Shown piece after piece: positions 5,313-45,655 of a DNA stretch of 45,655 bases. This DNA comes from a virus: positions 1 to 45,655 of the IMG/VR virus record IMGVR_UViG_3300021964_000132; one strand, written 5' to 3'. The translations under genes and the position numbers were made by a program. Each line of letters starts with the position of its first letter. The stretch's first letter is position 1. The notes beneath the pieces were generated by a model that had not been told where the DNA came from, ran no database searches, and was given only the letters and a program-made list of their open reading frames with translations.

Positions 5313-7355
5313 TTATACTAGACTTCCGCCCATGTTAGCAAGTCTATTATTGAAGTTTTTGGTATTCTTTTCTGTCATGGCACCTATCGTTACAAGCGTA
5401 TTTAAGTGTTGAGCCACCTTTTTGTTCAAATCTATCAGTTCTTTTGTGTTCGAATTCAATGTGGTCATATCTATCCCGGTTAAGTTTTGGTCCTGTGATA
5501 TTGTGCCTGATGTTAATGTGTTACTAGATGCGCCGATCATGGCGCCTTTCGCAAGCAGGTCATTGGCCAGGCCGGCCAGTTGATCCTTGGTGGCCACGGC
5601 CTCCATGCCGTGCAGTATGGCCATCGTGCCACTGCCGAAGTTTTGGAGCCCGTCCGATCCTGTGGCGAAGCGCAACGCCCTGCGCTGATCTCCTGTCATG
5701 TCTGCTTGGTCATTTACTACCTTTTTGCGGTGTCCCCTGGGGTTGAAAAACTGCACTCCCGGAGTGTCCGGGTCAGCGTCGAACATTCGTTCCATGAACG
5801 GTCGGGTGTCACGAGTTCCTGTGCTGTCCTCTATGCCCATCATTCGGTAGAGTGCGTCCGTGGCCCCGGAAACTGCACCGCCAAATCGGTCTAGGACTCC
5901 TCCGTCGACGGACATCTCCGCCAACTTCTGTGCTATCGCCGAGCTCGCCGCCAGTGTGGCCGGTAGCGTGGTCGCGATCCTGGCGTCCTGCATCGTCGTT
6001 GATATTGTGTCGAATTGGCTGAATACATTTACTGCCGCCTTACCGGATTCACTGATCTGTTCCAGCACGCCCGCAAGGCCTTCCTCGCTGATCTGTCTCC
6101 TGATACGCGGAACAAACTCCTCGAACACCCCAGCGAAGTCTCCGGTCAGTATGGCTACGTCTGCGAAGGCCTGTCCGTCCCGGAGCAGGTTATCCCCGAT
6201 ACGACCAACCGAGTTCTGGAATTGCCTTAGCGCATCAGAGTCCCCGGCGTTGTTGAGTAACTTCTGCAGTGGCCCTAGTATTTGTCCCTGCGTGGCTACC
6301 GTGAGGTCCCGTCCTATCTGGCTGACCGGTCCCTCGAACGCCAGCATGTCTTTGGTCAACTGTTGCAGTCCAGGGCCCATCTGGCTGTAGGCCTTGGTTA
6401 TGATGTCCGCGGTCTCCTTGTCCATGGTGGCAAGTTTGGCCCTGAACAGTGCGTCTGCGTTCGCGGCCTGCTGTTCCTCATTCAACTGGTCTATGCTCTT
6501 GCCCGTCATGGCGCTGAGCTTGGCCAGGTTGAGTGTGTACTGCTTGGTGGACTCGACCAGTTGTGTGTTGGTGAATCTTTGTAGGTTGCCCCTAGACCTC
6601 TCGGCTTCGAGGAAGGTCATCATGTACTGGGCGGTCTCGTCGGTGGTCAGTCCAAACTGTGCCAGGTCACGCTCGGTCACGTTCTTGAGTTCACGTCCCA
6701 GGCTTATGAATTGGTCTGCCCCCGCCTGCACACTGCCAAAGAACGCGCCCAACACTGCACCATTGGTGGCTATGAGATCCACCAACTTGGGCAGTGGTAT
6801 GCTCGCCTCCTTGGCCACCTTGGACAGTCCCAATAGGTTACCATTGAACGTGGCACCGGTGCGTGACAACTGAATGTAACTTTCTCGGAGCGTGTCGAAG
6901 TCTGAGGCCAACGCCATCGAGACTTTGCCGATACCTGGTATCTCGTCGATGCCGGCCGCCACTACGTCTGACAGACTGGTTATGGGTTTGCTGACGTCCG
7001 TGAATGCCAGCGCGGTCTTGCCCATGGCGGTGGCTGTGTTCAGCGCCGCTTTTGCTAACTTTTTGGGGAAGGACAACAGTCCCAGGCCGCTTGATTTGGC
7101 GCTCTTTCCTAGCTCGTCCAACTCCTTGGTGGTCTCTTTGAGTTCTGCCTGCAGGTCATCATATGATTCGCCAGATTCCTTGCGTTTTTTGATCAGATCC
7201 TTGATCACTCTAATCTGTGTTTTATGATACAGTGATTTTTCTTTTTCGTTCTTGGCCGATTCTTTCAGGGCCCTGTTTGATCCTTTGAGATGGATGACCA
7301 GTCCCTTCAACTCGGTGAGCACGTCCTCCAGTAATCGCTGTAATTCCTTGTCCAT
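5313..7355 (-). CDS. Tail tape measure protein (gp29-like)
   Basis: This 680-residue protein has an N-terminal coiled coil (about residues 1-85, with KNEKEKSLYHKTQIRVIKDL), then Gly/Ala-rich hydrophobic helical segments (about residues 95-160) and a long helical remainder rich in Ala, Gln, Leu and Thr. These are the usual properties of a tail tape measure, which sets tail length inside the tube. T4's equivalent, gp29, has 590 residues. The segment ERDLAQFGLTTDETAQYMMT resembles T4-like tape measures. It is followed six bases later by the portal gene instead of the sheath and tube genes usual in T4. The start is preceded by AAGGGG at some distance and by a TATAAATA box on this strand at 7426-7419. 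The gp26/gp51 pair lies divergently next to it. Confidence 0.78.
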   Translation of the reverse strand: MDKELQRLLEDVLTELKGLVIHLKGSNRALKESAKNEKEKSLYHKTQIRVIKDLIKKRKESGESYDDLQAELKETTKELDELGKSAKSSGLGLLSFPKKLAKAALNTATAMGKTALAFTDVSKPITSLSDVVAAGIDEIPGIGKVSMALASDFDTLRESYIQLSRTGATFNGNLLGLSKVAKEASIPLPKLVDLIATNGAVLGAFFGSVQAGADQFISLGRELKNVTERDLAQFGLTTDETAQYMMTFLEAERSRGNLQRFTNTQLVESTKQYTLNLAKLSAMTGKSIDQLNEEQQAANADALFRAKLATMDKETADIITKAYSQMGPGLQQLTKDMLAFEGPVSQIGRDLTVATQGQILGPLQKLLNNAGDSDALRQFQNSVGRIGDNLLRDGQAFADVAILTGDFAGVFEEFVPRIRRQISEEGLAGVLEQISESGKAAVNVFSQFDTISTTMQDARIATTLPATLAASSAIAQKLAEMSVDGGVLDRFGGAVSGATDALYRMMGIEDSTGTRDTRPFMERMFDADPDTPGVQFFNPRGHRKKVVNDQADMTGDQRRALRFATGSDGLQNFGSGTMAILHGMEAVATKDQLAGLANDLLAKGAMIGASSNTLTSGTISQDQNLTGIDMTTLNSNTKELIDLNKKVAQHLNTLVTIGAMTEKNTKNFNNRLANMGGSLV

Positions 7356-7436: not shown

Positions 7437-8291
7437 ATGACGGATCAGACTCCATTAGAGAAGTACTATAGACAGCCCACAGTGTACATCAAACTGCCGA
7501 GCCGCGGACGCTACTACTCAGATCAGGTGTTCACGCCCACTGAGACCGGGGAGATACCCGTGATGCCAATGAACGCCAAGGACGAGTTGGCATTCAAGAC
7601 CCCAGATGCCATGCTGAGTGGACAGAGCACGGTGGATGTGATCCGGAGTTGCATACCAAATTTCAAAGACCCATGGCAGATGGTCAACTACGACACCGAT
7701 GCGGTGTTGCTGGCCATCAGGATAGCCACGTACGGGGAGACCATGAATATCAAGTTCAGAGTACCTGTCACCAACGAGGAAGGCGAACACACTCTCAACC
7801 TACCCGCACTCTTGGAGGACCTAGCAAAAGTTGAAATAAAAGACACAGTGACCACCAGCAAGGGATTCACTATAGTGATGGAACCACTAACCTACAAGAG
7901 TCTCACCAAAGTGCAGTTGGCCAATTTCGAGAGTCAGAAGATGTTTGGCGCATTGGACAGTTCCGCTCTCACTGACGAGGATCGTAGCAAGGTGTTCAGG
8001 GACACGTTTGACAAGATAAACAAGATCAATTTCTCACTGCTGTTGGATGGCATCAAGTCTATAACCACGCCCGATGGCACGGAGGTGACGGACAGGAAAC
8101 AGATCATCGATTTCTGCAACAACACAGATGCCAAGACCGTGGACGAGATACAGAAACTGCTAGGCGATCTGAGGAACCAGACACAGATACCCGCACTCAA
8201 ACTGAAGGCCACCGAAGAACAGATCAAAAAAGGGGTGCCGTCTACGTACGAAGTACCACTGACATTCGATAACTCAAATTTTTTCGTATAG
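7437..8291 (+). CDS. gp26: Baseplate hub subunit gp26-like
   Basis: This 284-residue protein contains YIKLPSRGRYY near residue 17, a later MNAKDELAFKTPDAMLSG, and IRSCIPNFKDPWQMVNYD. These resemble the T4-like baseplate family that includes gp26, involved in assembling the baseplate hub; the family name is from memory of cyanophage homologues. In many tailed phages the equivalent gene pair before the tape measure acts as a tail assembly chaperone. It ends with NSNFFV and TAG at 8289-8291. Just before the stop it crosses the slippery sequence A AAT TTT TTC, which would shift some ribosomes into the gp51-like frame. No Shine-Dalgarno sequence is seen; a late promoter lies upstream. Confidence 0.8.
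   Translation: MTDQTPLEKYYRQPTVYIKLPSRGRYYSDQVFTPTETGEIPVMPMNAKDELAFKTPDAMLSGQSTVDVIRSCIPNFKDPWQMVNYDTDAVLLAIRIATYGETMNIKFRVPVTNEEGEHTLNLPALLEDLAKVEIKDTVTTSKGFTIVMEPLTYKSLTKVQLANFESQKMFGALDSSALTDEDRSKVFRDTFDKINKINFSLLLDGIKSITTPDGTEVTDRKQIIDFCNNTDAKTVDEIQKLLGDLRNQTQIPALKLKATEEQIKKGVPSTYEVPLTFDNSNFFV
8276..8285 (+). promoter_or_regulatory. Candidate programmed -1 frameshift site
   Basis: The gp26-like frame reads TCA AAT TTT TTC GTA TAG. The heptamer A AAT TTT at 8276-8282 fits the X XXY YYZ rule exactly, and T TTT TTC (8279-8285) overlaps it. The -1 frame is closed by TAA at 8270-8272 and the zero frame by TAG at 8289-8291, so the two frames overlap in only about 16 bases and the heptamer sits inside that window. 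Confidence 0.72.
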
Positions 8292-8515
8292 AACTGCTGA
8301 CACGCAACAGCCCTGACATCGTGAAGTATATCAAGGACCTAGAGAGCGACACCAAGAACCTCAAAATGGAACTGATGAAGATCTGTTGGTACATGAGGGG
8401 TGGCATGACCTGGCAGGAGTCACTGAACCTCAGCCCGGATGAGCGAGAAATAGTTAGCAAACTGGTAAAAGAGAACCTGGACACCGCGAAAAAAACCGGT
8501 CAGCCTTTCTTCTAA
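8282..8515 (+). CDS. gp51: gp51-like hub assembly protein, read as a -1 frameshift extension
   Basis: After slippage the -1 frame reads FRIELLTRNSPDIVKYIKDL and continues through ELMKICWYMRGGMTWQESLN to LDTAKKTGQPFF and a stop at 8513-8515. The motif WYMRGG..W.E...LSP.ERE resembles the short gp51 (baseplate hub assembly catalyst) proteins annotated in T4-like marine phages. The only early independent start is GTG at 8321, which lacks a Shine-Dalgarno sequence. Internal ATG codons fall later, within the conserved part. The layout, a short downstream frame reached by -1 slippage next to the tape measure, is that of the lambda G/GT and P2 E/E' tail chaperones. A separate gene starting at 8321 remains possible. 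Confidence 0.7.
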   Translation, partial: FRIELLTRNSPDIVKYIKDLESDTKNLKMELMKICWYMRGGMTWQESLNLSPDEREIVSKLVKENLDTAKKTGQPFF

Positions 8516-10575: not shown

Positions 10576-11574
10576 ATGCTGTCTGTGAATGAAATAACGT
10601 CTCTGCACTTGGAAATTTCCAGTTATTGTGTGGCGTCCTGTCCGATGTGTCCGAGGAATTTTTATGGAATGAAACACAATGCCGGCTATCCTGTTACCAA
10701 TATTTCTCTAAACGATTTCCGTAAGGTCTTCGATCCAGGATTGGTTCGAAGATTGGAACTTGTAAAGTTCAATGGCAATTTTGGAGACTTCAACATGAAT
10801 CCAGAAGCGATTGAGATAGTGGAATATCTACGCGGCAATAACCAGACTCTACACATAGAAATCAACACAAATGGACATTCGCGAGATTCGAAATTCTGGA
10901 GTCAACTGGCCAACAGCGATCCTGTTATACTGTTCGATCTAGACGGTTTAGAAGACACCCACCATCTACATCGTAAAGGCACTTCATACCAACGGGTGTT
11001 AGCAAATGCGCAGGAGTTCATCAACGCAGGTGGTCGCGCCACATGGAAGATGATTGTGTTTGATCACAACAAGCATCAAGTCGAGGAGTGTCGCGCACTT
11101 GCCAAGCAGGTCGGATTCACCAGTTTCAAAATTGCCAACGATGGTCGTGACCATGCTTACGTCTTCAACGACGACGGCAGTTACAGTCACACAATAGGCA
11201 ATCCGTCACACAGAGCACCACCGGAAGCCAAGACTCTGATGCAGTGGAAAACTAGAAGTAACCCAATAAGACATACCCAACCGCAAAAAAATATCGCATG
11301 CCAGGCCAAACGAGACAAAATGATATACATGTCGTCCAACGGTGACATATTTCCTTGTTGTTGGTTGGGATTTTCTCCCAAAACTTATGATGAAAAATTA
11401 TATTATGGAAACAGGCAACTCAAACAATTGATAGGAGAATCCAAAATCAATGCGATATCTCACGGTCTAGAAGAAGTGTTGGAGTGGTTTTCGTTGGTGC
11501 AGGACACCTGGCAGAAAAAAACCTTCAAGGAAGGAAGGCTATATCGTTGCGACATGTATTGCGGAAAGAACTGA
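10576..11574 (+). CDS. Radical SAM enzyme with extra C-terminal cysteines
   Basis: This 332-residue protein carries the radical SAM cluster motif CVASCPMC (Cys18, Cys22, Cys25; CX3CX2C), which binds the 4Fe-4S cluster that cleaves S-adenosylmethionine. Following elements fit the partial TIM barrel: KFNGNFGDFNMNPEAIEIV, a variant of the GGEP strand, and EINTNGHSRD. The C-terminal part has several Cys residues (IACQAKRD, DIFPCCWLGF, YRCDMYCGKN), like SPASM/twitch auxiliary cluster domains, which often act on peptides or sugars. The substrate is not visible. Its stop overlaps the ATG of the glycosyltransferase-like gene (TGATG), pairing the two. Arg codons are mostly CGN (11 of 18), unlike the AGR-only start of gp6, suggesting a different history. 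Confidence 0.88.
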   Translation: MLSVNEITSLHLEISSYCVASCPMCPRNFYGMKHNAGYPVTNISLNDFRKVFDPGLVRRLELVKFNGNFGDFNMNPEAIEIVEYLRGNNQTLHIEINTNGHSRDSKFWSQLANSDPVILFDLDGLEDTHHLHRKGTSYQRVLANAQEFINAGGRATWKMIVFDHNKHQVEECRALAKQVGFTSFKIANDGRDHAYVFNDDGSYSHTIGNPSHRAPPEAKTLMQWKTRSNPIRHTQPQKNIACQAKRDKMIYMSSNGDIFPCCWLGFSPKTYDEKLYYGNRQLKQLIGESKINAISHGLEEVLEWFSLVQDTWQKKTFKEGRLYRCDMYCGKN

Positions 11575-12695: not shown

Positions 12696-13100
12696 ATGTG
12701 GACGTATCAAGGAAAAGAAATCACCAGTATTCCGGAAGAGGTTGTGGGATTTGTGTACCAGATCACCAACACCACCAACGGTAGGATGTACATCGGCAAG
12801 AAGTTGGCCAGGTTCAAGCGTAGTAGGCCACCACTGAAAGGTCGCAAGAACAAGCGCAGGTACCAAGTGGACTCCGACTGGCAGGACTACTACGGTAGCA
12901 GTGATGAACTCACAGCGGATGTTCTGAAACTGGGCCGGGACAAATTCACCAGGGAGATCTTGTTCTACTGCTACTCCAAGGCAGAACTTTCATACGTAGA
13001 AGCCCGGGAGCAGTTCGCAAGGAAAGTTCTAGAATCAAATGACTACTACAACGGACACATCCGTGTGCGTGTGCATGGTAAAGGAATCCTTAAGTCGTGA
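12696..13100 (+). CDS. GIY-YIG family endonuclease
   Basis: This 134-residue protein shows the GIY-YIG nuclease core: GFVYQITNTTNGRMYIGKK at residues 18-36, where VYQI and MYIGKK are the two signature strands. A later helix, SKAELSYVEAREQFARKVL, holds the Glu expected to bind the metal ion. Before it comes YYGSSDELTADVLKLGRDKF, also typical of the phage versions. Enzymes of this family cut DNA; in T4-like phages they are often free-standing homing nucleases or degrade DNA, and there is no intron here to suggest homing in place. It follows the glycosyltransferase-like gene by 12 bases and has a terminator hairpin downstream. AGG and CGN Arg codons are mixed. Confidence 0.85.
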   Translation: MWTYQGKEITSIPEEVVGFVYQITNTTNGRMYIGKKLARFKRSRPPLKGRKNKRRYQVDSDWQDYYGSSDELTADVLKLGRDKFTREILFYCYSKAELSYVEAREQFARKVLESNDYYNGHIRVRVHGKGILKS

Positions 13101-18662: not shown

Positions 18663-20846
18663 ATGGCCAACAAAGTCTATAGCAACAATCCACACGTGAC
18701 CTACAGTCCCGCCTACGACTACGACGACACCTTCGCCAGCAAGAAGACGACCAAGAAACCCAGCGTGGAGGACTATCCCAACAACGTGCCGAACCCCCTG
18801 TTCAAGTACGCCAGTTACAATGTTATATTCACACTGAGTGCGCTCACGCAGGCGGAACTAGAGGATCCACAGACACTGCTGAAAGGCACCGAGCACGACA
18901 TCATCGTCAGGAGCTCGGGAATAGGCAATCCCAACCCCACGGATAACCTATCCGCGGAGAACAAGGCGATACTGAAGTCAGACAGGGCCACTAAATCTTT
19001 GCGAGACGCACGGGAGAACCTGCGCAGGGGCAGGGATCTATACTTCTCCAAGGTCAGGATGTTGAACGTGCCCAGCCTCAACGCACAGCGTAGGCTGACA
19101 TCGGTCACAAACATAGAGATGGATATAGTGGAACCCATGGGCATAAGCCTGTTGGACAAGATACGCGGTGCCGCCGCGAACTGCAACTATCTGGACCATA
19201 TCAGCGCACCCTACATGCTCACAATGGAATTCAGGGGGTTTGATGAGTTCGGCAAACCGATACCGGAAGCGGACCAACAGATGCTGAAGAGGAAGATACC
19301 GATCAAACTGGTCAACATGGAACTGGACGTCAACAAGGGTGGCACCACCTACTCGGTCAAGGCAGTGCCCATGAACGAGCACGGCTTTGTGAACCACCAC
19401 ATATACCTGAGGACTTCGGGTGTGATCAAGCGGGGCAACAGCATCCAGGACACCATGGACAGCCTGGCCGCCATAATGAACAGGCAGACGGAGGACGAAT
19501 CCAAGCAGTCCCTGGTGGAGATACCGGACACATACGAGATCATCGTCGACCCAGAATTCGCTCAGGAGCAGGCCACCGCACGGGGACTGGGCATGGGTGA
19601 CATAGGCGTGGGTGGACAGAGTGACGCCAGGGAGAACGCCATACTCAAGAAGGCCGGTCAGGTCAAACAGAACGACAGCCTGCTGACCATAATGACGGAA
19701 CTGATGAAATCACTTCCGAGGTTCCAAAAGGAAAGATCACTGACGGAGTTCGACAACAAGATCAAGGGATTAGGCAAGAACGCCAAGCCCGAGGACATGT
19801 ACTTCAACTATTTCTTCATAGAGTCCAGCGTGATACCAGACTCGTCCAGGTTCGACAGGGTCAGGGGCAAACACCCTAGGAAGATCATATACAACATCGT
19901 GCCCTACAAGATACACGCCTACGCTCTCGCCGACCCAGGATCCAGCACAGGCACCAACTTCGAGCAGTTCGTCAAGAAGACCTACAACTACATCTTCACC
20001 GGCGACAACCTGGACATACTGGACCTCAACATCAACTACAGGGTGGCCTACTTCCAGAGTCGCCTCAAGGACATACAGGGCAAGAGTGGGTCAGACAAGT
20101 TCTCCAAGACGCAGGGACAAGATGAAGATGACGTTGAAGTGGAGGATCCCGCGACCAAGGACGCATTCAGGGATCCATCATTCATCCACCAGTCTGAGGT
20201 GGGCACAACCACATCAGTGACCAGTGGTATCAACAAGGGCAACGCCACTGAACTGGATCAAAGATTAGACGCGCTATCCAACCCAACCGCGGACATGGTG
20301 TTCGTGAGGATGAGCATACTGGGAGATCCCGCATACCTGGGACAGTCTCAGTTCATACCAACCACGGCCAGGCGTGAAAACGTGCTGGAGAGCAATCGCA
20401 AGAAACTGGCGTTCTCCCAAGGGAACCGTGATGTTTGGAACGAGATATACGGTAACTTCAACATGGGATTTGGTGATCCCATAATCAAGCTCAACTTCAG
20501 GTCACCCACGGACGTCAATGAGAAGACCGGGGTGTACGAGCTGGCCAAGGACGAGCAGATAGCGTTCTCCGGACTGTACAGGGTGGTGCAGGTGGACAAC
20601 ATGTTCGAGGATGGCAAGTTCATACAGGAACTACAGTTGGTGAGATTCAACAACCAGGGCGACAAACCCTACGCACCACAGGCCGCCACTTACGTTAGGC
20701 CAAACCCACACGTGGAAACGTTTGACAAACTGGTGCCCAAGGCGGAATACGTCAATGAGGTGTCGCTGGTAGCAAAGAAGTTCTCCACGTACCTCGAAGC
20801 CAAGATAAATGCTTTAAAGGATAAGTTTAACATAGGAAGGAACTAA
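18663..20846 (+). CDS. Large baseplate structural protein, probable hub (gp27-like)
   Basis: This 727-residue protein lies between gp53 and gp5, where marine T4-like phages carry a hub protein. Features: FKYASYNVIFTLSALTQAEL (residues 48-67), a charged helix with RENLRRGRDLYFSKVRML, DHISAPYMLTMEFRGFDEFG, KIPIKLVNMELDVNKGGTTY near 210, IYNIVPYKIHAYALADPG near 420, an acidic linker near 480 (GQDEDDVEVEDP) and a C-terminal DEQIAFSGLYRVVQVDNMFE. The combination of repeated beta-barrel-like strands and position next to the gp5 spike supports a hub role, which in T4 is gp27, but no alignment was possible. TAATG overlap with gp5 indicates translational coupling. Confidence 0.6.
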   Translation: MANKVYSNNPHVTYSPAYDYDDTFASKKTTKKPSVEDYPNNVPNPLFKYASYNVIFTLSALTQAELEDPQTLLKGTEHDIIVRSSGIGNPNPTDNLSAENKAILKSDRATKSLRDARENLRRGRDLYFSKVRMLNVPSLNAQRRLTSVTNIEMDIVEPMGISLLDKIRGAAANCNYLDHISAPYMLTMEFRGFDEFGKPIPEADQQMLKRKIPIKLVNMELDVNKGGTTYSVKAVPMNEHGFVNHHIYLRTSGVIKRGNSIQDTMDSLAAIMNRQTEDESKQSLVEIPDTYEIIVDPEFAQEQATARGLGMGDIGVGGQSDARENAILKKAGQVKQNDSLLTIMTELMKSLPRFQKERSLTEFDNKIKGLGKNAKPEDMYFNYFFIESSVIPDSSRFDRVRGKHPRKIIYNIVPYKIHAYALADPGSSTGTNFEQFVKKTYNYIFTGDNLDILDLNINYRVAYFQSRLKDIQGKSGSDKFSKTQGQDEDDVEVEDPATKDAFRDPSFIHQSEVGTTTSVTSGINKGNATELDQRLDALSNPTADMVFVRMSILGDPAYLGQSQFIPTTARRENVLESNRKKLAFSQGNRDVWNEIYGNFNMGFGDPIIKLNFRSPTDVNEKTGVYELAKDEQIAFSGLYRVVQVDNMFEDGKFIQELQLVRFNNQGDKPYAPQAATYVRPNPHVETFDKLVPKAEYVNEVSLVAKKFSTYLEAKINALKDKFNIGRN

Positions 20847-23461
20847 TGGCGGGACTGCACGATTACCTCAAAGGAGATGCTTCAACACCCAGGTCACCAA
20901 AGATCAATCAGGACTGGGGTAACATATTCCCCGGACCCTATGTTGGCATAGTGAAAGGCAACAAAGATCCACTGCGCGCCGGCAGGCTAAAGGTGCTGAT
21001 CCCATCACTGAGGGGCACGTACAAGTCCGAATTCGATGGCCTGATCGACTGCGACTACCTGTCACCGTTCTACGGCAACAAGGGACTGCGGCACGTCAAG
21101 CCAGGTACCAAACACACAGATTCACAGTTCTCTTATGGGTTCTGGGCGGTGCCACCCGACCTGGAGACCAGGGTGTTAGTGATCTTAGCAGAAGGAAAGA
21201 TGGAACAGGCGTTCTGGATAGGTTGTGTTCAGGAACCGCTGACAAACCACATGACACCGGGCATAGCGTCTTCGCGTAAAGTCAAAGACGACCTTAACCA
21301 AGACCCCGCAGAGGATTATGGTTCGAGTAACTTGCCCGCAGGTGAGGTCAACAGGTTTTCTGGAGTCGACGAGATCAATTATAAAAACAAAAACAAGCCG
21401 ATACATCCTTTAGCGGACACCTTGCTCAGACAAGGACTGAGCGCGGATGACGTAAGGGGAAACACCACGTCCTCAGCGCAGAGGGAGGCGCCCAGCCAGG
21501 TGTTCGGCATGAGCACCCCTGGCAGGTTGAATCCTGGTTCCACCCCACAGAAGGTCAGCACTGACGATGCCGAAGCAACGGCCATAGTGGACAGGCTGGC
21601 GGGTCACACGTTCGTCATGGACGACGGTGCCGCGGACGGCACAAACCAACTTACCAGATTGAGGACCGCTTCAGGACACCAACTGCTGATGCATGACACG
21701 GAAGGTGTGGTGTACATAGCCAACGGATCGGGCAACGCCTGGATTGAGATGAACAGCGAGGGCAGGATAGACGTGTACTCGGGCATTGGCGGAATCAACA
21801 TGAGGACGCATGGTGACTTCAACCTGCACTCGGACGCCAACATCAACATGCACGCCGGGGGACAGATCAGGATGAGTGCCACCAACGAGATAGTGAAGTC
21901 AGCGGGCTCATACATGCTGAACCTGGGGGACAAGGGCATATTCAACAGCTCACAGAAAGGAAGCATAAGGGATTACGCCAGGGACGGTCTAAGTTCATTC
22001 ACTGACGGCACACAGTTGCATGGTGCAGGCGGAAGGATAGACTTGGCAGGATCACAGGTGCACCTGAATTCCGTTGGTGCTAGTCCGGTATGGGGGCCCA
22101 CGTGGTTGAACACTGACGCCGCGGGCATGACCGAGAGGCAGGAGGGCGACGTGGAGTTGGCCAAGAAGGGCATACAGCCACTGAGGCCGTTCACCAAACA
22201 GACTTCCACCACGGTGCACAGATTCGTGACACACGAGCCCATGCCTAGGTTCCGTGGATTCACTTCAGAGGGCGCAATGCCTACGGGAGGAGCGGACAAC
22301 AAGAAACGTTGGAGTCAGTTGGCCAACACACCAGGCACGGTGGAGTACACAGAATACCAACTCATGCTGTCTCCGAACGAGTCCATAAGGCAAGGCATTT
22401 TCCAGGCGCAACTGGAGAGACACCTGCGTGAACAAATGGGCACATCAACTGACCCTGTCAAGGCCAGGAAGATTGCGGCGGATTTTGGCAAGGAATACGA
22501 CGAATTATTCGGCATCAATGCCAGCAAGGTGAAATGGGACACCGCGGCCAGCATCAGCAACAAGTTGAAAGGGTTCGATGTCGCGGACTCCGTGTCGGAG
22601 GTGCTCAACAACAACACCAAGAAACTGGCGGACCAGGTCATCGACACTGTCACAGGATCAGAAGTGGCTGAACTGTTCAAGGACAACGTGTTCGTGAACC
22701 AGTCCGGAGAACTGTTCGCCCTGGGTGACAAGACGCAGTTGTACTCGGGTGACTTCAAGGGCTTCGCCACAGACGTGGGGAGCAAGGCCGTCGCCAACAT
22801 TGCAAACGAAAACCTGAAGAAGGCGGTGGGAGACCTCACCAAGAGAAAAGTGATCGGCACGGACAAGTTCGGGAATCCCATATACAAGGGACTGGACAGG
22901 GACTACAAGAACATCGGAGGCATAGACATATCCGGCATCGCGGGCAACATCAACATCGCCAACATCGCATCAGTGGGAGACATCAAGGCCACAACCAACG
23001 TGTTTAAGAACGTGGTGGCGGGACAGGTCACGTCGACCATACAGACGACGGCGATAAACGCTGCGGCCAGCCAGGCCAGAGGGTTCCTGGCGGGACTGGG
23101 CGGAAGCACGGCCCGGGAACTGGGACGACAGGGCATCACGCCGGGAAGGTTCACCAACCTGGGCGCCAAGATCGGTTCTATGAAACTGCCCGCGTCGTTA
23201 GGTGGAAGTGTGACGGGCGCATTCACGGCCGTGAAAACATTCTTTAGTGGATTCAGTGATGAGAGATTGAAGGAAGACATCAGATTGATTGGTAAGTCCC
23301 CTTCGGGAATCAACATCTACGAGTTTAAATACAAGCACACGTCGGGCACGTGGCAGGGTGTGATGGCACAGGAGGTGCCATGGGCTAGGATCATGACCGA
23401 CACGGGATACTACATGGTCGACTACAGCAAGGTCGACGTGGAATTCAGGAGGATACACTAA
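20846..23461 (+). CDS. gp5: Baseplate hub spike gp5, without lysozyme, with C-terminal S74-type domain
   Basis: This 871-residue protein begins with an OB-fold as in gp5/VgrG: GNIFPGPYVGIVKGNKDPLR, RAGRLKVLIPSLRG, and later VLVILAEGKMEQAFWIGCVQ. After it comes a repetitive beta region (VYIANGSGNAWIEMNSEGRI, MRTHGDFNLHSDANINMHAG) like the gp5 C-terminal beta-helix needle. No T4 lysozyme domain (the 174-342 region in T4) is present. Residues about 500-800 form a helical, Ala-rich segment, and the end (804-871) has SDERLKED, the S-D-x-R-x-K motif of Peptidase_S74 intramolecular chaperones, with the candidate Ser804 and Lys809. TAATG junctions join it to both neighbours. Confidence 0.88.
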   Translation: MAGLHDYLKGDASTPRSPKINQDWGNIFPGPYVGIVKGNKDPLRAGRLKVLIPSLRGTYKSEFDGLIDCDYLSPFYGNKGLRHVKPGTKHTDSQFSYGFWAVPPDLETRVLVILAEGKMEQAFWIGCVQEPLTNHMTPGIASSRKVKDDLNQDPAEDYGSSNLPAGEVNRFSGVDEINYKNKNKPIHPLADTLLRQGLSADDVRGNTTSSAQREAPSQVFGMSTPGRLNPGSTPQKVSTDDAEATAIVDRLAGHTFVMDDGAADGTNQLTRLRTASGHQLLMHDTEGVVYIANGSGNAWIEMNSEGRIDVYSGIGGINMRTHGDFNLHSDANINMHAGGQIRMSATNEIVKSAGSYMLNLGDKGIFNSSQKGSIRDYARDGLSSFTDGTQLHGAGGRIDLAGSQVHLNSVGASPVWGPTWLNTDAAGMTERQEGDVELAKKGIQPLRPFTKQTSTTVHRFVTHEPMPRFRGFTSEGAMPTGGADNKKRWSQLANTPGTVEYTEYQLMLSPNESIRQGIFQAQLERHLREQMGTSTDPVKARKIAADFGKEYDELFGINASKVKWDTAASISNKLKGFDVADSVSEVLNNNTKKLADQVIDTVTGSEVAELFKDNVFVNQSGELFALGDKTQLYSGDFKGFATDVGSKAVANIANENLKKAVGDLTKRKVIGTDKFGNPIYKGLDRDYKNIGGIDISGIAGNINIANIASVGDIKATTNVFKNVVAGQVTSTIQTTAINAAASQARGFLAGLGGSTARELGRQGITPGRFTNLGAKIGSMKLPASLGGSVTGAFTAVKTFFSGFSDERLKEDIRLIGKSPSGINIYEFKYKHTSGTWQGVMAQEVPWARIMTDTGYYMVDYSKVDVEFRRIH

Positions 23462-26900: not shown

Positions 26901-27402
26901 TCATCCAGTAAAATACAAGATACTTTTTGGTACAGACGCCGATGAAGAATTACAAGCAACATTCAAGGTTGTGAAAAATCCCAAAACAAACGTCACAGAC
27001 GCAGTGATCAAGACCAGGGTGATCTCCGCGATAAACGAATTCTTCGCCCTAGACAACTGGGACTTCGGAGACACTTTCTATTTCACAGAATTGGCCGCTT
27101 ACATTCACAATGAACTGGCACCAGACCTGCTGACAGCGGTCATCGTGCCCAACCAGTCAGGACAGGGTTTTGGGTCCTTGTTCCAGATCAACTCAGCGGC
27201 GGACGAGATTTTCATCAGTGGGGCCACCGTTGATGATGTGTCGATAATAACAGCACTTGGTGCCAATCAACTAGCGGCATCAGGCACTGTGGTCACATCA
27301 ACATCAACTGCCACTACCAACACCACCACAGGATCAGCGGTATCAGGCTCCACTACAACAGGTTCCGGTTCAACGACCGGAAGTAGTGGGGCAGGTTACT
27401 AA
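23920..27402 (+). CDS. gp6: Baseplate wedge subunit gp6
   Basis: This 1160-residue protein starts with RKIYQAFQQADFKSYDFETL, YPDDFNDFVESSEYVALIDL, AYIAQALSFRVDLNARENFL, the typical gp6 N-terminal helical region. The C-terminal part, INEFFALDNWDFGDTFYFTE and then LAAYIHNELAPDLLTAVIVP, is the baseplate J-like end. Gp6 forms the ring of wedges around the baseplate core together with gp25 and gp53. It is far longer than T4 gp6 (660), the extra being beta-rich and Thr/Asn-rich in the middle (about residues 370-1000). The last 40 residues are Ser/Thr/Gly low complexity. All 13 Arg codons in the first 115 residues are AGA or AGG. TAATG overlaps the giant next gene. Confidence 0.92.
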   Translation: MATTDRQNRLLVAEDWRKIYQAFQQADFKSYDFETLRRTMVSYLRENYPDDFNDFVESSEYVALIDLIAYIAQALSFRVDLNARENFLETAERRNSVLRLARLINYNAKRNKPATGLLKIDSISTTQDVLDSTGTNLATQTIVWNDSANSNYREQFTAVLNAANQTGQLFGNPRESGSIGGIDTEVYTLSSNQTDLPLFKYVKSVGGVSRQFEIVSSTINNSDSIYESDPIPGTGLTYTYRSDGAGDSSNNTGFFFLFKQGTMQYTDFTVDTAVTNYVRSIAASNINDTDVWLYKLDQFGQIAEKWAKVPSLSGNNAIYNSLAESERNIYNVVTKNNDSIDLVFGDGNFSNLPLGSFRTYHRVSDNAKYAIQSADMQNIQVAVPYTDANGAQQTLTISMSLKASVYNAAATESNDSIREKASQVYYSQNRMITAEDYQVVPLSASQEIVKVRSVNRSASGISRAKEILDPTGAYSNVSVFAEDGILYREESTQQFSFTFNNRSDIQRTIDTSVEARLKEAYARQFYYLKYGTKDLSTLTATWNSTTTSTNTNTGYFTSGGPLVVGDYATSDLKFAKTGALIKFTSPDTRKFLNGALVTSGTDNAEDRAWAKIGAVVLDGANGGLGNLESGVGPITLNDIIPNGAVLSAVIPNFTTSFSTTLEADIIDRIEAYEEFGLRYDIDTETWKVITSTNLSTSAVFSLANTGNASGTNLDASWWFKFTNDGNTYTVTYRKLDYIFESESQNKFHFDTQDRIYDYQTGRSVKDTVKILKTNSIVSTGNSIGYPITWQVVDTVTEVDGFQDNRKVKVGFFDADDDGVVDNPDIFDIVVEPTLSQSTKFVFFEKYTSYDNIERFRPYASTNFVTTQNESDIDLNTATYTDGQLFYFYDAGEDVIKSYSSATNSLTTTTDYIARRGRSSISFQYKHFAGQETRIDPSVSNIVDIYLLERTYDNLFRVWLQDGGQKPTPSTQDQLRINYSGVLNPLKSLSDQIIYHPVKYKILFGTDADEELQATFKVVKNPKTNVTDAVIKTRVISAINEFFALDNWDFGDTFYFTELAAYIHNELAPDLLTAVIVPNQSGQGFGSLFQINSAADEIFISGATVDDVSIITALGANQLAASGTVVTSTSTATTNTTTGSAVSGSTTTGSGSTTGSSGAGY

Positions 27403-30400
27403 TGGCTGACAATCCCACAAACGCACTCACCAACAACGAAGTAGTCAAGCAAGGCGATAACGAATACAGACGAACTGTACAACACCTTCCAGCATTCTAC
27501 AGGACGGACGCCAACCAACGTTTTCTGGCAAGCACACTAGACGCTCTGGTTCAGAAGGGAGATCTTGAGAGGTTGGATGGATTCATCGGAAGGCAGGATG
27601 CCTACACAAGAGAGATCAACGACAGATATATTCCGGCCACCAGCAGGGATAGATTTGCCTATCAACTTGAACCTGCGGTGATATACACAGATAGGGACAC
27701 AACCTCGGTCAATCCGGAGGACCAGGTCAAGTTCACGGGCACCTATGATGACTACATAAACCAGATACGATACCTTGGAGGAAAGGTAGACAACCACGAT
27801 CGTCTCAACAAGGAAATCGTTTACAGCTGGAACCCCGCAATAGACTATGACAAGTTAGTGAATTACAGGGAGTACTACTGGATACCCGAAGGTCCGGGCG
27901 CCATAGAGATTGATTCCGTTGGACCCAACGCTGTGGCCGAGTACACTGTGACCAACGTTGGACAAGCGGCGTATGAATTCAGACACAGGGAGAACGAGAA
28001 CAATCCCATACTGACACTGTACCGGGGCAACACCTATAGGTTCAACGTGGACGCCAAGGGACACCCGTTCTGGATAATGACGGAACCCTACAAGAGCAAG
28101 GTGTCAGAGGACGGTTCCACGTCCACAATATATTCAACAGGTGTTACCAACAACGGCGCAGACGAAGGGGTGGTCATATTCACTGTTCCCACTTCAGGAG
28201 CACCAGACACGCTGTACTATCAGTGTGGCAATCATGATGCCATGTACGGCATACTGCAGATCAGAGATTCAGTCGCTACCACCAAAATCAATCCTGATGA
28301 TGATATAATAGGAGTAAAAAATTACAGCCTTAGGACCTTGGACCTATCCAATGGTATGAAGATCAAGTTCACAAGCAGTCTAGTACCAACGGCGTACCAG
28401 GGCAAGGAATACTACGTGGAGGGAGTGGGCGACGCCATCACCCTTACCGATGTCGATGCCCTCATAGTTCCGTCGACTTATGCCACTGAGACCACTATAC
28501 TGTACGACTCTGTGGCCTATGACACACGTCCATACGCTCTGGCCTACTACACGCCTGACGTCAAGGACTACATCACAATAAAGCGCGACAGCCGTGACCA
28601 GAACGCTTGGTCCAGGTACAACAGGTGGTTCCATAGAAGCGTGATAGAGGAGACCGCGCGTGTAAGTGGGTTCACACCGGTGCTGAACGAGGATGACCGT
28701 GCCAAGAGACCCATCATAGAATTCGACTCAGGACTGACACTTTACAATCACGGCACGGTGGCCAAGAGATCGGTCACACTGTATGACACGGTTACCACGG
28801 ACGCTTTCAGCACGATAGTGAACAATAGCGGTTACATCATAGATGGTATCTCGCTGGCGGATGGCATGCGGGTGATATTCGCCGCCGACACCGACCCCAT
28901 AGTTCGCAACAACATATACGACGTCAGTTTCGTGACCGCGGGTGATTCCACACAGAAGATAGCCCTCACAAAGGCCACGGACGCCACGCCCTCGGACAAT
29001 GAAAGCGTTTTCATCGAGTTCGGCACTGTAAACCAGGGCAAGACATTCTACTACAACGGAGACACGGAGGCCTGGACGGAGGCACAGCAGAAGACTGGCC
29101 TGAACCAACAGCCGTTGTTCGGCATGTGGGACAACGATCACACTCCGTTCGACAACGAGACCAAATATCCTAACTCTTCGTTTACGGGCGCGACTGTGTT
29201 CAGTTATGCCACCAGCGACACCTCACCGATTGACACGGAACTTGGCATCAGGGTCAAGTACAAAACCATCAACAACGTGGGGGACATAGTTTTCGAGTCA
29301 GACCACACGTCTGGGACCTTCACCTACAAGAGCGGTTCTAGGACGGTGACCAAGAACCTGGCAGAAGGTCATCTACACTATACCACGGGCAGGCAGACCC
29401 ACAATTCACGTAGCGCCTGGATCCAAAGAACAAACGAGGCAAGGCAACGTGTAATAAGGACGCGTATTGTGGATGACACGGAAAAGAGACTGTTTCCCAT
29501 AGATGTCTATGAGAATTCAGCGGCGCTCACGGACCTAGAGGTTTCTGTGTCAGTGAATGGTAATAGGATGACCCAAGGCACAGATTACAATCTTGTGAAC
29601 GGAACAACAAACAAGTATGTGAGGTTTGTTGAGGATCTAGCAGTCAATGATCAGATAAGAATGGCCACATACAGCAGTGCCACTAAAGTCACAGGCAAAG
29701 GAATCTATGAGGTACCTGAGAATCTGGCCATTAACAGTTTGAATCAACAACTAGGCACGTTCACACTGGGGCAGGTGTTGAACCATGTAAGGGACATATT
29801 TGACAAGAACCAAGATGTCACGGGAGCGATACCAGGCAATTCGAATCTAAGGGACAAACCAGATGCTCGGCTGAAGGGAGGTACGATTCATCAGCACGCC
29901 GGACCATTGGTTCCCGCTATCTTTGGTCTTATTGACCAGCAAACCAATTTGATTTCAGCGTTAGATTATGTCAATCAAGAATATGAGAAATGGTACAACG
30001 CCTTCCTCACGCATGCCACTGGCACTGCCTATGAAGGGGTGGCCGCGGACAGGGTTGACGAGATCATAGCATCGATCACACAAGGTCGTAACTCCACGTT
30101 CCCGTTCTTCTATGAAGACATGGTCGGCTGGGGAGAGAATGTCACAACTAGGACGTACACAGTTCAGGGCGCGTCACAGACAGAATACGCCATAGATTCA
30201 CAGCACGATATAAACACGCCAAGCAACCGTGCGGTTTACGTGTACTTGAATGATGTGCAGTTGTTGGTGGGCACAGATTACACGTTCAGCACCACAGACG
30301 ACAGCATCGACATCTTGACCACACTTGCTGAGGGAGATCGTATTGTTATCAAGGACTACGCGGATACCACAGGCAGTTACATGCCCGTCACTCCGACCAA

Positions 30401-33400
30401 GATGGGAATGTATCCCAAGTTCAAACCAGAGTCGTTCACCGATGACACATACCTCAATGACACAGCGGTCATTCGGAGGCACGACGGTTCTATTATCAAG
30501 GCCTACGGGGACGAGCGCGATGACTTAATACTGGAACTGGAGAAGAGGATATACAACAATCTGAAAACACAACACGATGCTAGTTTGGTGGATATACATG
30601 ATGTCCGACCCAGCGCATTCACCCCAACTGAGTATTCCCTTGCTGAAATTGACGATGTAATGTCCGCAGACTTCAATGTCTGGGCTGGTAGAAACAGTGT
30701 CCAGTACATCAACAACACGACATTCACCGAAGGGTCGCCGTTCACATATAACTACGCCAAGTCAACTGACAGGTTAAATGGACAGAGCTTGCCAGGCTAT
30801 TGGAGGGGCATATACAAATATTTCTATGACACAGACTCACCACACACTAGACCGTGGGAGATGTTGGGTCATTCAGAGAAACCCACTAACTGGGACGCAA
30901 CATACGGAACTGCGCCATACACCTCAGGAAATGATGTTTTGTGGAACAAGATAGCCACAGAACCAGGCAGATACGGAAAACCATCAATCAAGCAATACCT
31001 CCCTGTTGACGATTCTGGCAATCTGTTGGACCCCATAGCGGCCGGACTGATCGACTCCTTTGACATACCAGGACGCCAGGCGTCATGGAAGTTTGGTGAT
31101 CAAGCTCCAGCCGAAACCGCATGGCGAAGATCAAGTTCATACCCATTCACTGTGATGAAGACACTGGCATTAACGAAACCAGCCAAGTTCTTCAGCAACC
31201 TGTTCGATCCTTCTAGGCTGTCTACCAACACAGCGGGAAACCAGATCTACACATTGACCGGAATTAGGAAGACGCTGTCTACTGCGAAATATCACCTAGA
31301 GACAGAGACTAACAACGACACAGGTGTCACGACTAGATACCAGACAGCAGGTTATCAACCCTTCGTAGTCAATTTTTTAGTATCAAAGAACCAAGATCCA
31401 AAGACTTTTTACTATGACAAGATGAAGGCCTTATCAGTGCAGTTGGCCTACAAACTGGGCGGTTTTACTGACAAGGAAAACATCAAAGTGTTGACAGACA
31501 GTGTGTCGCCGGGATCCACATCAGGCTCCAAATTCATTCCAGACGAAAACTACAAGATACTATTCAGGACCTCCAACCCAGTGGAGAGCTTCCAATACTC
31601 CGGAGTGCTGATAGAGAAGAACACAGACGTAAGTCAAGACGGTTCCACGCTACAGGGAGGTTACAAAGTTCTTGGTTACTCTACTACAAAACCCTATTTT
31701 AAATTCAATTATCCGATAAAGACCACCACCAACAAGTCGGTGTCCGTTACAGGATCACAGGCTGTGGCACAATACAACGCCTACCAAGAGACTGTGCAGA
31801 CAATACCATACGGCCACGTGTTCGACACAATTCAGGACGTCGCAGACTTCCTGTTCGGTTATGGGCACTGGCTAGAAGGTCAAGGTTTCAGGTTCAACAA
31901 ATTTTCCAACGAACTGAAGGAGACTCTAAACTGGGCGAACGCCGTCAGAGAGTTCCTGTTCTGGACCACACAGCCGTGGGCTCCGGGATCGGCCGTTACG
32001 GTATCACCGGCCGCGGATGGCTTTGAACTGGACACAAACAACAGCATAGTTGGAATGTTGAAGAACCTAGCAGGTGATTACTCATTGCTGGATGCCGGTG
32101 GCAGAAAGATCGACATAAGCGAAATATCCACGAAAAGGATAGGAAAGACTTTTGAACTTAGTATAAAATCTGATCAAGTGGGACTTTACAACATAGCGTT
32201 GAACACTGTCCAGAAGGAACACCTGTTGGTGTTTGACAACAGCACTGTTTTTGCAGACATCATCTATGATACTTTCACAGGATTCAGGCAACCACGATTG
32301 AAATTGGTTGGATGGAAGACCGGTGGGTGGAACGGCGACTACTATGCTCCTGGATTCGTGTTTGATGCGGCACAGGTGACATATTGGTTGGCAAACACCG
32401 ACTACAGATTGGGTGACTCGGTGGAGTTCCAAGGCAAGTTCTACGTGGCCAAAGTCAACCACAACTCGGGTCCGGTGTTTGAAGCTTCGAATTGGACATT
32501 GAAATCCAGCAAGCCGGTATCACAACTGATACCTAACTTCGACTACAAAATTGCACAGTTCAATGATTTCTACAATCTTGAATCCAACAACTTTGACGAG
32601 TCACAACAACAGCTGGCTCAGAGGTTGATAGGTTACCAGAGCAGGGATTACCTAGAGAACCTTTTCGTCAATGACGTTTCACAGTACAAGTTTTATCAGG
32701 GCTACATCCGCGAGAAAGGCACAAAGAATGCCATAGACAAGATACTCAAGGCCAAGTATGAAAATTCAGACATCACCCTGGACTTGTACCCTGAATGGAT
32801 GATTAGAACCGGAAAATTCGGAAACACCGACTCTACAGAAAGCATACAGATCATTCTTCAAGATGACCAAATCAACGCCGACCCACAGAGCATAGAACTA
32901 TATGACACCACCAACGAAAGTGTTGAGTATGCGCGATCGCAGTACGTGGCCAAGTCGGATCTATACTCAGTGCCGGTTGAATACACAGCATCGTCAACGT
33001 TCAGCAGACTTGACTACACCAAACCGGGCGTGGACAGGGAAACAGCACAGGTTTACAAGACCGCTGGATACCCCCAATTGGCACAGGTACAACACACTGC
33101 ATTGAACATCAGTGACCTGTTTAATCTAGACGTGAACAGGATAACATCTAACGATCTGGTATGGGTTGCCAACAAGTCCAACAAGGACTGGGACGTGTTT
33201 AGGATCACAGTCAGTGACTTCAAGATAGCGAGTCTGAGGACCATCAACAGCGCAACGCAGTTGGAGATAACCTTCACAGGCACCCATGGACTTTCAGAAG
33301 CAACACCAACAAGCGAGGCCGATTATTTCGCGATCAGTAACAGCGAGGAGGCCACCCTGAATGGTGTATACCAATTGTCAAGCACTCCGGACCACAAGAC

Positions 33401-36400
33401 AGTCATAGTTGACTTTGACGGAAACACGGCTTTCATACCCACACTGGAGGATGGGTCCACTGCGGACAGTTATGGTAATGTTTACAAATTCATATCAGTG
33501 AGGCTCTCTTCCATGGACAACGTCAATGACAGGCTGAGCTACTCTGATTACATCGACAAGGATGATGACATCGAGCGGGAGGGCGACAAGGTGTTTGCTG
33601 ATGCGGACAGTTCGGGACTGTGGCGAGTGTACGAGAAGCAGGATCCATACACCAGTAGGCAGATTCTTTCTCCTAATTCGTCTGCCACGGACCAGGAGTT
33701 CGGGCACAGGATAGTAGCACGTGATGATGGTAGGACCGCGGTAGTGTCGGCACCAGGAGCAGGGCAGGGCAGGGTGCACTTCCTGTTCAGACAATCCCAT
33801 GACCCAGGCACGAGGTTCACGGTACAGTCCACGGCCGCGATGACCGAGGGTTCTGACAACACCAGCAGATTGGGAGAGTCTTTGTCCATGAGCACGGACG
33901 AGAACTTTGTGGTTGCGGGCGCACCCTACGCCAATCTCGTAGATCAGGATGGTAGTACCATCACCCAGAACACAGGGCTCATCAAAGTATACCTGTGGAA
34001 TCCAGAAGTTTTCAACTACGGCATTCTCAGCACCATAAAGGCTCCCACGGATGGGTCAACGGCCAACACTGATCTGAATTTTGGTTGGTCTCACAAGATA
34101 TCAGAACCTTCAGTAGCATCCACGAGATCCACACCCCAGAAATACATGTTCGTGTCGGCACCAGGACACGAGAACGACACTGGAAGAGTTTACCTTTACA
34201 CGTGGGGCGTAGGGTTGGATGGTTCTACGTACGACACCTGGACTCAAGACTACACCATTGAGGCACCAGATGGTGGTTCGGGACAAAGGTTCGGTCATAG
34301 AGTCGACGCCAATGACAACGGTGATATATTAGCGGTCAGTTCTGTGGCGCCAGGAAATGCGGGCAAGGTGGAGATATTCGTAAGGACATCACAGAGCAAT
34401 GACGGAAGCACACAGAATTCATTCGCACTGACACAGACCCTCACAGGAGTGGACAGTGACGGATCCAGCATCAATACCGCTTTTGGTGAATCATTGGCCA
34501 TGAGCAAGGACGGCACAACGTTAATAGTAGGCGCACCCGGTGTGGATGGTTCACAACAAACCGATGGTGGAGCCATATACTACTACAAATGGAACGCAGA
34601 CGGGTCAACGAACACCTACACCCTACAGCAGACAATCACTGCTCCAGATACACAGGACAACATGAAGTTTGGTACCACACTAGACATCGATCAGACAGGC
34701 ACCAGGTTGGTCATAGGGGCGGAGAAATTTGCTAACGCTAGGGAAATGAAATTTGACTCAGGGGAGACCACCTTTGACCTGCAGGACACCACAATCGTGG
34801 ATCTAAACATTGGTTCGGGAGCGGCATACACAGCAACAATGTACAACACCCGTTTCGTGGTCGACGACAAACTTAACTTTGACAGTGTCACGTCCAATGA
34901 TGATTTTGGAAGAGGGGTGTGTATGATAAAAGACACAGTGTTTGTTGGTGCGCCGGACGATGACGGTAATCTGACCACTGACGGTAGCACCCGATTGTCC
35001 AACGACGGCACGGTGGTGTGTTATGACCTCACAGTGAGGGGAGAGTACGCTTGGAAGAATTTAGTCACAGAACAACCATTAATGGACGTGGACAAGCTGG
35101 GTGGGGTATTTGAATTCAACAAAAAAACCAAACAGATCAGAGATTATTACGATCTCTATGACCCAGTGAAAGGCCGGATACTGGGTGTGGCCGATCGTGA
35201 GATCAACATAAAGACCACCTGGGATCCTGCCACTTACAATTTCGGCACTGATTCCAACACGAGGACGCCATGGACAGATGACCACTTAGGGGAGACATGG
35301 TGGGACCTATCCACGGTGAAATGGATCTGGTACGAGCAGGACACACAGGAGTACAAGCACAATAACTGGGGCAGGACATTCCCAGGATCAAGCATAGACG
35401 TGTATGAGTGGACAGAGTCAACACTGCTTCCTAGTCAGTGGAACACAAGGTCGGGCACACAGCAGGGAGCCGCAGAAGGCATCTCAGGCATCGCTCTGTA
35501 CGGCGATGACTCTAGGTACACAGTGGTTCAGAAATACAATTCTAGACTGGATAGGTTCGTCAACTTCTACTATTACTGGGTCAGAAACAAGGTAACCGTG
35601 CCCTCTGAAAGTGTGGTAACAAGAAAGAACTCTACTTCACTGGTGGCAAACATGATAGCCAACCCAGAGAGGTTCGACAAAAAATATTATTCGATCACAG
35701 ACACTAACAAGTTTTTGATCAACAATACCGATAATTTGATCAACGATGAAATAGTGCTCAATGTTGATGTAAGGACCAATGATTTCGAGGGAGATTCTCA
35801 CTCGGTCTGGAAATTGGCCCGCGAAGGCGACAAGGACTACAGGCCAGGAACGCAGATTGAACAGCGTTGGTGGGACTCGCTGATAGGTTCCAACGAGGCG
35901 GGAGATTTGGTCCCAGACGTGAATCTGTCAGTCAATGAGAAATATGGAAACTCTGTTAGACCTAGACAGAGCTGGTACGTGGATAGGTTTGGGGCACTCA
36001 AGGAGATCATCGACTACACCAACTCTGTGTTGAAAAAGAACCAGCTGGTGGGACAGATAAACCTCACCAATCTCGATTCAAAACAACCAGAGCCCACGGC
36101 ACAGAGTGGGGAGTGGGACGCGGTGGTGGACACCTACGCCGAGCTCACGTACATCAACACCTCGGACCTATCAGGAACTGTGAATTACCTCGTGAGGTCG
36201 GACGAGACGGCCAACAACTTCTGGTCCATATACCAATGGGATGGCACCGAATTTTCAAGGACCAAGATCCAGACCTACAACACATCAGTCTACTGGAGTT
36301 ACACAGACTGGTACAAAACGGACGGTGACATGATTCACGATGAGAACACAACCATAGACAAGCAAGTTACTTTCCAATACGAACTGGACTCATTGGAACT

Positions 36401-45046: not shown

Positions 45047-45655
45047 TAACAGTTTCTACCACGGCCAACAGGGCGAATGCTTCCGACAACTAGACAAACA
45101 CTGGCAAGACATAAAACACGAGTTCGACTCTCAGCCCAACAAGACATTCCTAGACCCAGAGGACTTCTCTGACAGCGTCCGAGGACTGCCAGAGGACTTC
45201 GATGACAGGTCCGGAGACTACGTCAGTGGCGAATGGCGTGCGCTGGGCATACAGTCTGGTGATCACGAGGGACAGTCGTTCAACGACTATCCCATGCTGT
45301 ACTCCATACTGAGGAAATTCCCATACAAGACCAACGTGGCCATAATGACCGTTGGTCCCAAAACCAAGATCGGCAACCACACGGACAACGAGGGAGGATG
45401 GAGATACCAGATGTGCCTGGATGATGGTGGTGGAGACCAGAGCGGAATGTGGGTTAAGAATCTCGAGACTGGAAAACAAGAACTAATGACCTGGAAAACC
45501 GGTGAGGCATACGTTTTCCAGCCAGGACTGCAACTACACAACGGATTCAACCACAATCCTGGCCCAAGGACCACACTTCTCATTGACTTTTGGAAGGAAT
45601 CCCAGTACACTAAAGAAAGTTTCGACAAATATTACCAGCACTACTCGGAGTGTTT
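45039..45655 (+). CDS. 2-oxoglutarate/Fe(II) oxygenase, aspartyl-hydroxylase type, 3' end cut off
   Basis: The start ATG at 45039 lies inside the end of the Hint gene (ATGCTTGA overlap); the frame is open to the window edge, giving 205 residues. An in-frame TGA lies just upstream, so this is the first start. The core VGPKTKIGNHTDN contains the metal motif H-x-D, and QLHNGFNHNPGPRTTLLIDF supplies the second His and the 2-oxoglutarate-binding Arg. Together they match the Asp_Arg_Hydrox (aspartyl/asparaginyl hydroxylase) family. In phages such enzymes are of unknown target; here a virion or fibre protein is possible given the coupling to the fibre gene. The substrate is inferred, not seen. Confidence 0.82.
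   Translation, partial: MLDNSFYHGQQGECFRQLDKHWQDIKHEFDSQPNKTFLDPEDFSDSVRGLPEDFDDRSGDYVSGEWRALGIQSGDHEGQSFNDYPMLYSILRKFPYKTNVAIMTVGPKTKIGNHTDNEGGWRYQMCLDDGGGDQSGMWVKNLETGKQELMTWKTGEAYVFQPGLQLHNGFNHNPGPRTTLLIDFWKESQYTKESFDKYYQHYSEC

Follow-up and report, generated by a model that had tools for sequence, protein, structure and literature searches.

How is an open reading frame translated when it overlaps the end of the gene before it, lies in the -1 frame and opens without a start codon that carries a ribosome site? The question is raised by a stretch of 45,655 bases, hereafter the window, which comprises the whole of IMG/VR record IMGVR_UViG_3300021964_000132, a metagenome-derived virus record of T4-like make-up that encodes a prohead core protease and gp53-like and gp5-like baseplate proteins. 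An earlier note, made from the sequence alone, had proposed that a gp26-like and a gp51-like frame are joined here by a -1 programmed frameshift. A conserved frame offset and a conserved slippery site support that proposal, and -1 programmed ribosomal frameshifting very probably makes two proteins at this locus, a tail assembly chaperone of 284 aa (TAC-N) and, less often, a fusion of 359 aa (TAC-NC). The features concerned are collected in Table 1.

Table 1. Features of the tail chaperone locus and its neighbour in the window
Feature	Coordinates	Strand	Basis
TAC-N, gp26-like tail assembly chaperone, zero frame, 284 aa	7437..8291	+	PF12322, phrog_150, AlphaFold model
Candidate slippery heptamer T TTT TTC (P-site TTT 8280-8282, A-site TTC 8283-8285)	8279..8285	+	in phase, 119/119 loci
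Overlapping second heptamer A AAT TTT	8276..8282	+	kept in part of the family
-1 frame, C-terminal (T-like) domain of the predicted TAC-NC	8285..8515	+	78-codon conservation, pN/pS, helical model
Zero-frame stop TAG, two codons past the slip codon	8289..8291	+	sequence
Probable tape measure protein, 680 aa, divergently transcribed neighbour	5313..7355	-	mainly position

The ends of the two frames are as the earlier note had placed them. The zero frame closes with TCA AAT TTT TTC GTA TAG, and the -1 frame is open from 8273, just after a TAA at 8270-8272, to a TAA at 8513-8515. Two heptamers, A AAT TTT and T TTT TTC, overlap in this short region, and both are in phase as X XXY YYZ. The first -1 codon is CGT (Arg, 8285-8287), and the junction peptide is S-N-F-F-R-I whichever heptamer slips, so that the fusion would consist of 283 zero-frame and 76 -1 residues. 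The only early start in the -1 frame is indeed the GTG at 8321-8323, which has no Shine-Dalgarno match.

Two scans of IMG/VR yielded 110 loci, and the set of loci with both frames came to 119, of which 82 are distinct. This set comprises environmental contigs, the window and the jumbo phages Atu_ph07, Phosso, XbC2, pEa_SNUABM_47, RaK2, 121Q, PA5oct, Munch, GAP32, Vibrio 2.275.O and SCTP-2. The -1 offset and a zero-frame NNT TTT TTC are present in 119 of the 119 loci, a count that is not phylogenetically independent. The phages Hallingskeid, CBB and XaC1 also have T TTT TTC and a -1 tail, and XacN1 and CM1 have T TTT TTT. Altogether the junction was seen in about 70 distinct environmental contigs, 16 jumbo-phage isolates and seven classical T4-like phages, and the recurrence of the -1 offset and of T TTT TTC is more than chance. 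The alignment of the junction across many phages, proposed in the earlier note, thus supports the frameshift reading. A +1 frameshift is excluded, since the offset is -1 at every locus. Because the window derives from a metagenome, we also considered that the gene might really be fused and the break an error of assembly or sequencing; that the same junction recurs in 23 isolate genomes, and in about 70 distinct contigs drawn from many samples, leaves this virtually no probability, and the isolates refute it.

Within the heptamer, two synonymous third bases are frozen. The codon before the first Phe specifies Asn, Ser, His, Arg, Tyr, Asp or Ala, yet it is invariably NNT, and the first Phe itself is TTT without exception. 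Outside the heptamer, these genes have T as the third base in only 57% of such NNY codons and use TTT for 61% of their Phe residues. Since the ribosome has already decoded these codons in the zero frame when a tandem slip occurs, -1 coding alone does not explain their third bases, and we attribute the constraint to slippage. The second heptamer shows no such fixity. A AAT TTT, which the earlier note had picked out as a perfect slippery heptamer, is in phase in the window as stated, but it is T TTT TTC, there named only as what follows, that is conserved. A AAT TTT has been lost in loci L070-L072, L101-L102 and L107-L113; relatives without it have an AGT, CAT, TAT, GAT or CGT codon, or a base other than A before AAT. 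Since it is not universal, A AAT TTT would be a helper at most, and we rejected it as the main slip site because it is kept only in part of the family.

The -1 frame behaves as coding sequence from its first codon onwards. From slip to stop it is 78 codons long, with no indel, both in the window and in each of the 70 distinct IMG/VR relatives; the distance is also 78 codons in Atu_ph07 and SCTP-2, 79 in Phosso and 72-75 in the other jumbo phages. Among relatives the zero-frame stop wanders from 1 to 11 sense codons past the slip, whereas the -1 frame stays fixed. In an analysis of 73 sequences of 78 codons, third codon positions are the most variable along the whole -1 frame, beginning with its first codon, and pN/pS is 0.41 over codons 2-77. 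That first codon, Arg CGN, is invariant at positions 1 and 2 in the 73 sequences, while the overlapping zero-frame residue changes. For the 17 sequences that contain no ATG, GTG or TTG before codon 29, pN/pS over codons 5-28 is 0.47 in the -1 frame versus 0.95 and 1.50 in the other two frames. Purifying selection acts on the -1 tail upstream of any possible start.

These data bear directly on the view that the downstream frame is a separate small gene, a free gp51 whose translation begins inside the frame, for instance at the GTG at 8321, through reinitiation or translational coupling. GenBank annotates it so in P-SSM2, S-PM2, HTVC008M, KVP40 and several jumbo phages, phage genes often overlap, and in some relatives the zero-frame stop lies near possible starts. 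However, the -1 frame has no conserved start: the first possible one is scattered between codons 3 and 38, PA5oct has none at all, and a Shine-Dalgarno-like match of even four bases is absent from 75 of 81 first starts. The sole near-conserved ATG (codon 38, in 68 of 73 sequences) falls inside a WYMRGG motif, in the middle of the domain. Selection on the codons ahead of any start and the two frozen heptamer bases also count against a free gp51. Conserved -1 coding combined with scattered starts is hard to reconcile with a separately initiated gene, and we consider such a gene very improbable. Among the homologues examined, a gp51 that has a frame to itself along with a conserved start and ribosome site, named in the earlier note as evidence that would speak against frameshifting, was found in none except T4, where it is an in-frame fusion.

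The homopolymer T run at the junction is compatible with another route to nearly the same protein, in which transcriptional slippage on the six T residues adds a U to some of the transcripts, whose ordinary translation then produces the fusion. A six-T run is shorter than bacterial RNA polymerase usually needs for slippage. Moreover, the run is exactly six T followed by C in nearly all sequences, it is invariably in X XXY YYZ phase, and in one sub-clade a stem of 10-15 bp follows at a distance of 3-6 nt, like the stimulators of ribosomal frameshifting. No single one of these points excludes transcriptional slippage by itself; we regard it as scarcely credible.

For ribosomal frameshifting at -1, a stimulatory element, either a downstream structure or an upstream Shine-Dalgarno sequence, is common but not obligatory. 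In the window, neither RNA folding nor a stem search past the slip site did better than shuffled sequences, 186 of 200 shuffles matching or beating the best stem. No upstream Shine-Dalgarno-like stimulator was detected in the 82 sequences, the window included. The stem of 10-15 bp, by contrast, is absent from the window's lineage and occurs in the sub-clade formed by loci L074, L076, L077, L101, L103, L104, L107, L108, L110 and L111. Atu_ph07 and Phosso share it at the same 3-6 nt past the heptamer, and the list of stem-bearing loci, which covers the sub-clade and two rhizobial jumbo phages, also names L112 and L113. In the five cases tested, 0 of 200 shuffles reached such a stem. Its arms vary by paired changes (GGATCTTAAC/GTTAAGATCC, GGATCTCAAC/GTTGAGGTCC, GGCTCTTTGT/ACAAAGAGCC and GGCTCTTGTC/GGCAAGAGCC), and PA5oct has a different stem, of 11 bp, at the same distance from the heptamer. 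Because the arms also code for protein, the paired changes are suggestive of a frameshift stimulator rather than proof of one.

The gp26-like identity proposed for the zero-frame product is solid. TAC-N matches PF12322 (E = 5.1e-12) and phrog_150, 'baseplate hub' (E = 3.6e-15), and belongs to the T4 gp26 family. Its AlphaFold model, built from an alignment of 35 relatives (the structure predictions used the window and IMG/VR rows only), has a pLDDT of 86 and a pTM of 0.81, with low confidence for the last six residues. The model matches 'baseplate hub assembly protein, bacteriophage T4-like' (E = 6e-23) and both tail assembly chaperones of Arthrobacter phage Molivia, of 204 and 358 residues (probability 1.00, E = 0.02 and 0.008); a Foldseek search against the PDB returned no match. 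For the gp51-like label of the -1 domain, the position is right and profile comparison with the 'gp51' of cyanophages and KVP40 is suggestive, but the sequence match is weak: no Pfam or PHROG family is significant, and phrog_634, 'baseplate hub assembly catalyst', reaches E of about 0.04 in 2 of 35 members. The model of the -1 product is a confident helical unit (pLDDT 86) for which Foldseek found no match among viral models, and its long second helix (residues 11-40) starts ahead of the window's first usable start at codon 14.

The neighbouring gene on the opposite strand probably encodes the tape measure protein. In all 92 loci that include this neighbour, its homologue lies on the opposite strand, and the protein in the same place in Erwinia phage pEa_SNUABM_47 is annotated 'putative tape measure protein'; direct sequence similarity is marginal, so we take the role from position. 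From these features we infer slippage in the host, its efficiency and the roles of both proteins as follows. Most ribosomes would read the gp26-like frame to its TAG and release TAC-N. A minority would reach T TTT TTC with tRNA-Phe in the P and A sites, move back by one base to pair with TTT TTT and then read CGT, yielding TAC-NC with its helical C-terminal domain. By analogy with lambda gpG and gpGT, TAC-N would coat the tape measure protein, the rarer TAC-NC would recruit tail-tube subunits through its tail, and neither would stay in the virion.

A PF12322 search located homologues in P-SSM2, S-PM2, HTVC008M, KVP40, phiM12, phiW-14, phiM9 and T4. The seven phages other than T4 have one copy each, which ends NNT TTT TT(C/T/G) and is followed by an open -1 tail of 59-65 codons. 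In P-SSM2, S-PM2, HTVC008M and KVP40 the annotation makes this tail a gene of its own, named 'baseplate hub assembly catalyst' or gp51, which bears out the earlier note's suggestion that frameshifting would explain why gp51 is so short in marine phages. The KVP40 annotation remarks that the tail is similar to a segment of 40 residues at the C-terminal end of T4 gp51. T4 has two PF12322 copies, gp26 and gp51: its gp26 keeps the EFF residues as GAG TTC TTT GAG, without the heptamer, and its gp51 continues, with no change of frame, into a C-terminal part to which the cyanophage tail aligns (HHalign 86%, E = 5e-6 for the pair). Among the tail profiles, HHalign gave 99.6% for the window's lineage versus the jumbo phages, 70% for the jumbo phages versus the cyanophages and 21% for the window's lineage versus the cyanophages. 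Because the others have one copy with a slip site and T4 has two copies without one, T4 looks like a derived case in which duplication has replaced frameshifting, a direction suggested by phyletic distribution. On balance we lean towards a T TTT TTZ frameshift being ancestral to the T4-like superfamily, including the jumbo phages and the window's uncultured lineage; T4 would have lost it by chaperone duplication and in-frame fusion of the tail (gp26/gp51), and at least one sub-clade would have gained a downstream stem-loop stimulator at the same heptamer. If so, these phages are a series of natural variants in which the determinants of the short-to-long chaperone ratio can be compared, and T4 takes its place as the derived exception in a superfamily that otherwise uses one fixed slip site.

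Xu, Hendrix and Duda reportedly described a conserved tail-gene frameshift of dsDNA phages in 2004. In lambda, the tape measure protein is bound by many copies of gpG and few of gpGT, whose T part brings in the tube protein (PMC5009743). The window would share with lambda an abundant short protein with a rarer C-terminally lengthened version made by a -1 shift near the end of the first frame, and a position adjoining the (probable) tape measure gene. It differs in its heptamer (T TTT TTC, versus G GGA AAG in lambda), in a chaperone of the gp26 family (PF12322) and in a tape measure gene that is divergent, not downstream. A 2016 review described G-T frameshifting as conserved among long-tailed phages 'except T4' (PMC5009743). 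According to the papers that cite them, Vladimirov, Gautam and Davidson identified the tail chaperones of T4-like phages (Virology 566:9-15, 2022; cited in PMC10274946, PMC10885494 and PMC12846349). The PRFect papers relate from that study that some T4-like phages have a short gene and a fused long gene, with no frameshifting (PMC10274946, PMC10885494), and the 2025 Adele paper cites it for poly-T -1 signals in T4-like TAC-N genes (PMC12846349). In view of that citation, the earlier note was probably wrong in supposing that the frameshift had not been described for T4-like gp26/gp51.

The kind of system, a tail chaperone -1 frameshift, is therefore already known, insofar as Vladimirov et al. 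(2022) and the papers citing them cover T4-like chaperones. With T4-like gp26/gp51 the window shares the protein family, the cited poly-T -1 signal and the correspondence of the T4 gp51 C-terminus to the -1 tail, but T4 itself has separate genes without a slip site, and the window's lineage is far from T4, its tail domain falling in no Pfam family. P-SSM2, S-PM2 and HTVC008M share the NNT TTT TT(C/T) junction and a -1 tail annotated as a separate gp51; their tails, of 62-65 codons, are only distantly like that of the window, and the HTVC008M slip site is T TTT TTT. Phage Adele and the Vandenendeviridae/Andersonviridae likewise have a -1 shift on a T run near the end of TAC-N and a downstream ORF misannotated as a hypothetical protein, but they belong to other virus families and their motif is GTTTTT (PMC12846349). 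We found no description of the frameshift in this uncultured lineage, of its reach to the jumbo phages or of the stem-loop that follows the heptamer in one sub-clade; for jumbo-phage cases, a search of the literature, with most subscription journals outside its reach, returned nothing relevant.

No joined CDS was found among the annotations of relatives examined. The -1 tail is unannotated in RaK2 (L116) and PA5oct (L118), and in other jumbo-phage records, among L114, L115, L117, L119-L123 and L146-L148, it is given as a shortened separate hypothetical protein. In these phages, a joined CDS is the appropriate annotation for what is now listed downstream as 'gp51' or 'hypothetical protein', and the fixed heptamer, with or without a downstream stem, offers a ready test set for the tuning of chaperone ratios.

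Several other genes of the window deserve mention. The gene at 20846-23461 encodes a gp5/VgrG-like baseplate protein that matches Phage_base_V weakly and has a Peptidase_S74 auto-chaperone-like domain at its end, both matches lying just under the Pfam cut-off; a Peptidase_S74-type domain is more usual on tail fibres than on a baseplate protein. Adjoining the baseplate genes, a single open frame of 4290 codons (27402-40274) encodes a giant virion protein. A SegE-type GIY-YIG homing endonuclease (12696-13100; PF19835, E = 9e-36) is located near structural genes, and a radical SAM protein (E = 1.5e-9) is encoded at 10576-11574. Towards the end of the window lie genes for a glycine-rich fibre-like protein (43622-45046), whose C-terminal Hint-like (self-processing) segment, CFIAGTMITMADGSHKPVEQV, has a weak Hom_end_hint match, and for an aspartyl/asparaginyl beta-hydroxylase-like protein (45039-45653; E = 4e-11).
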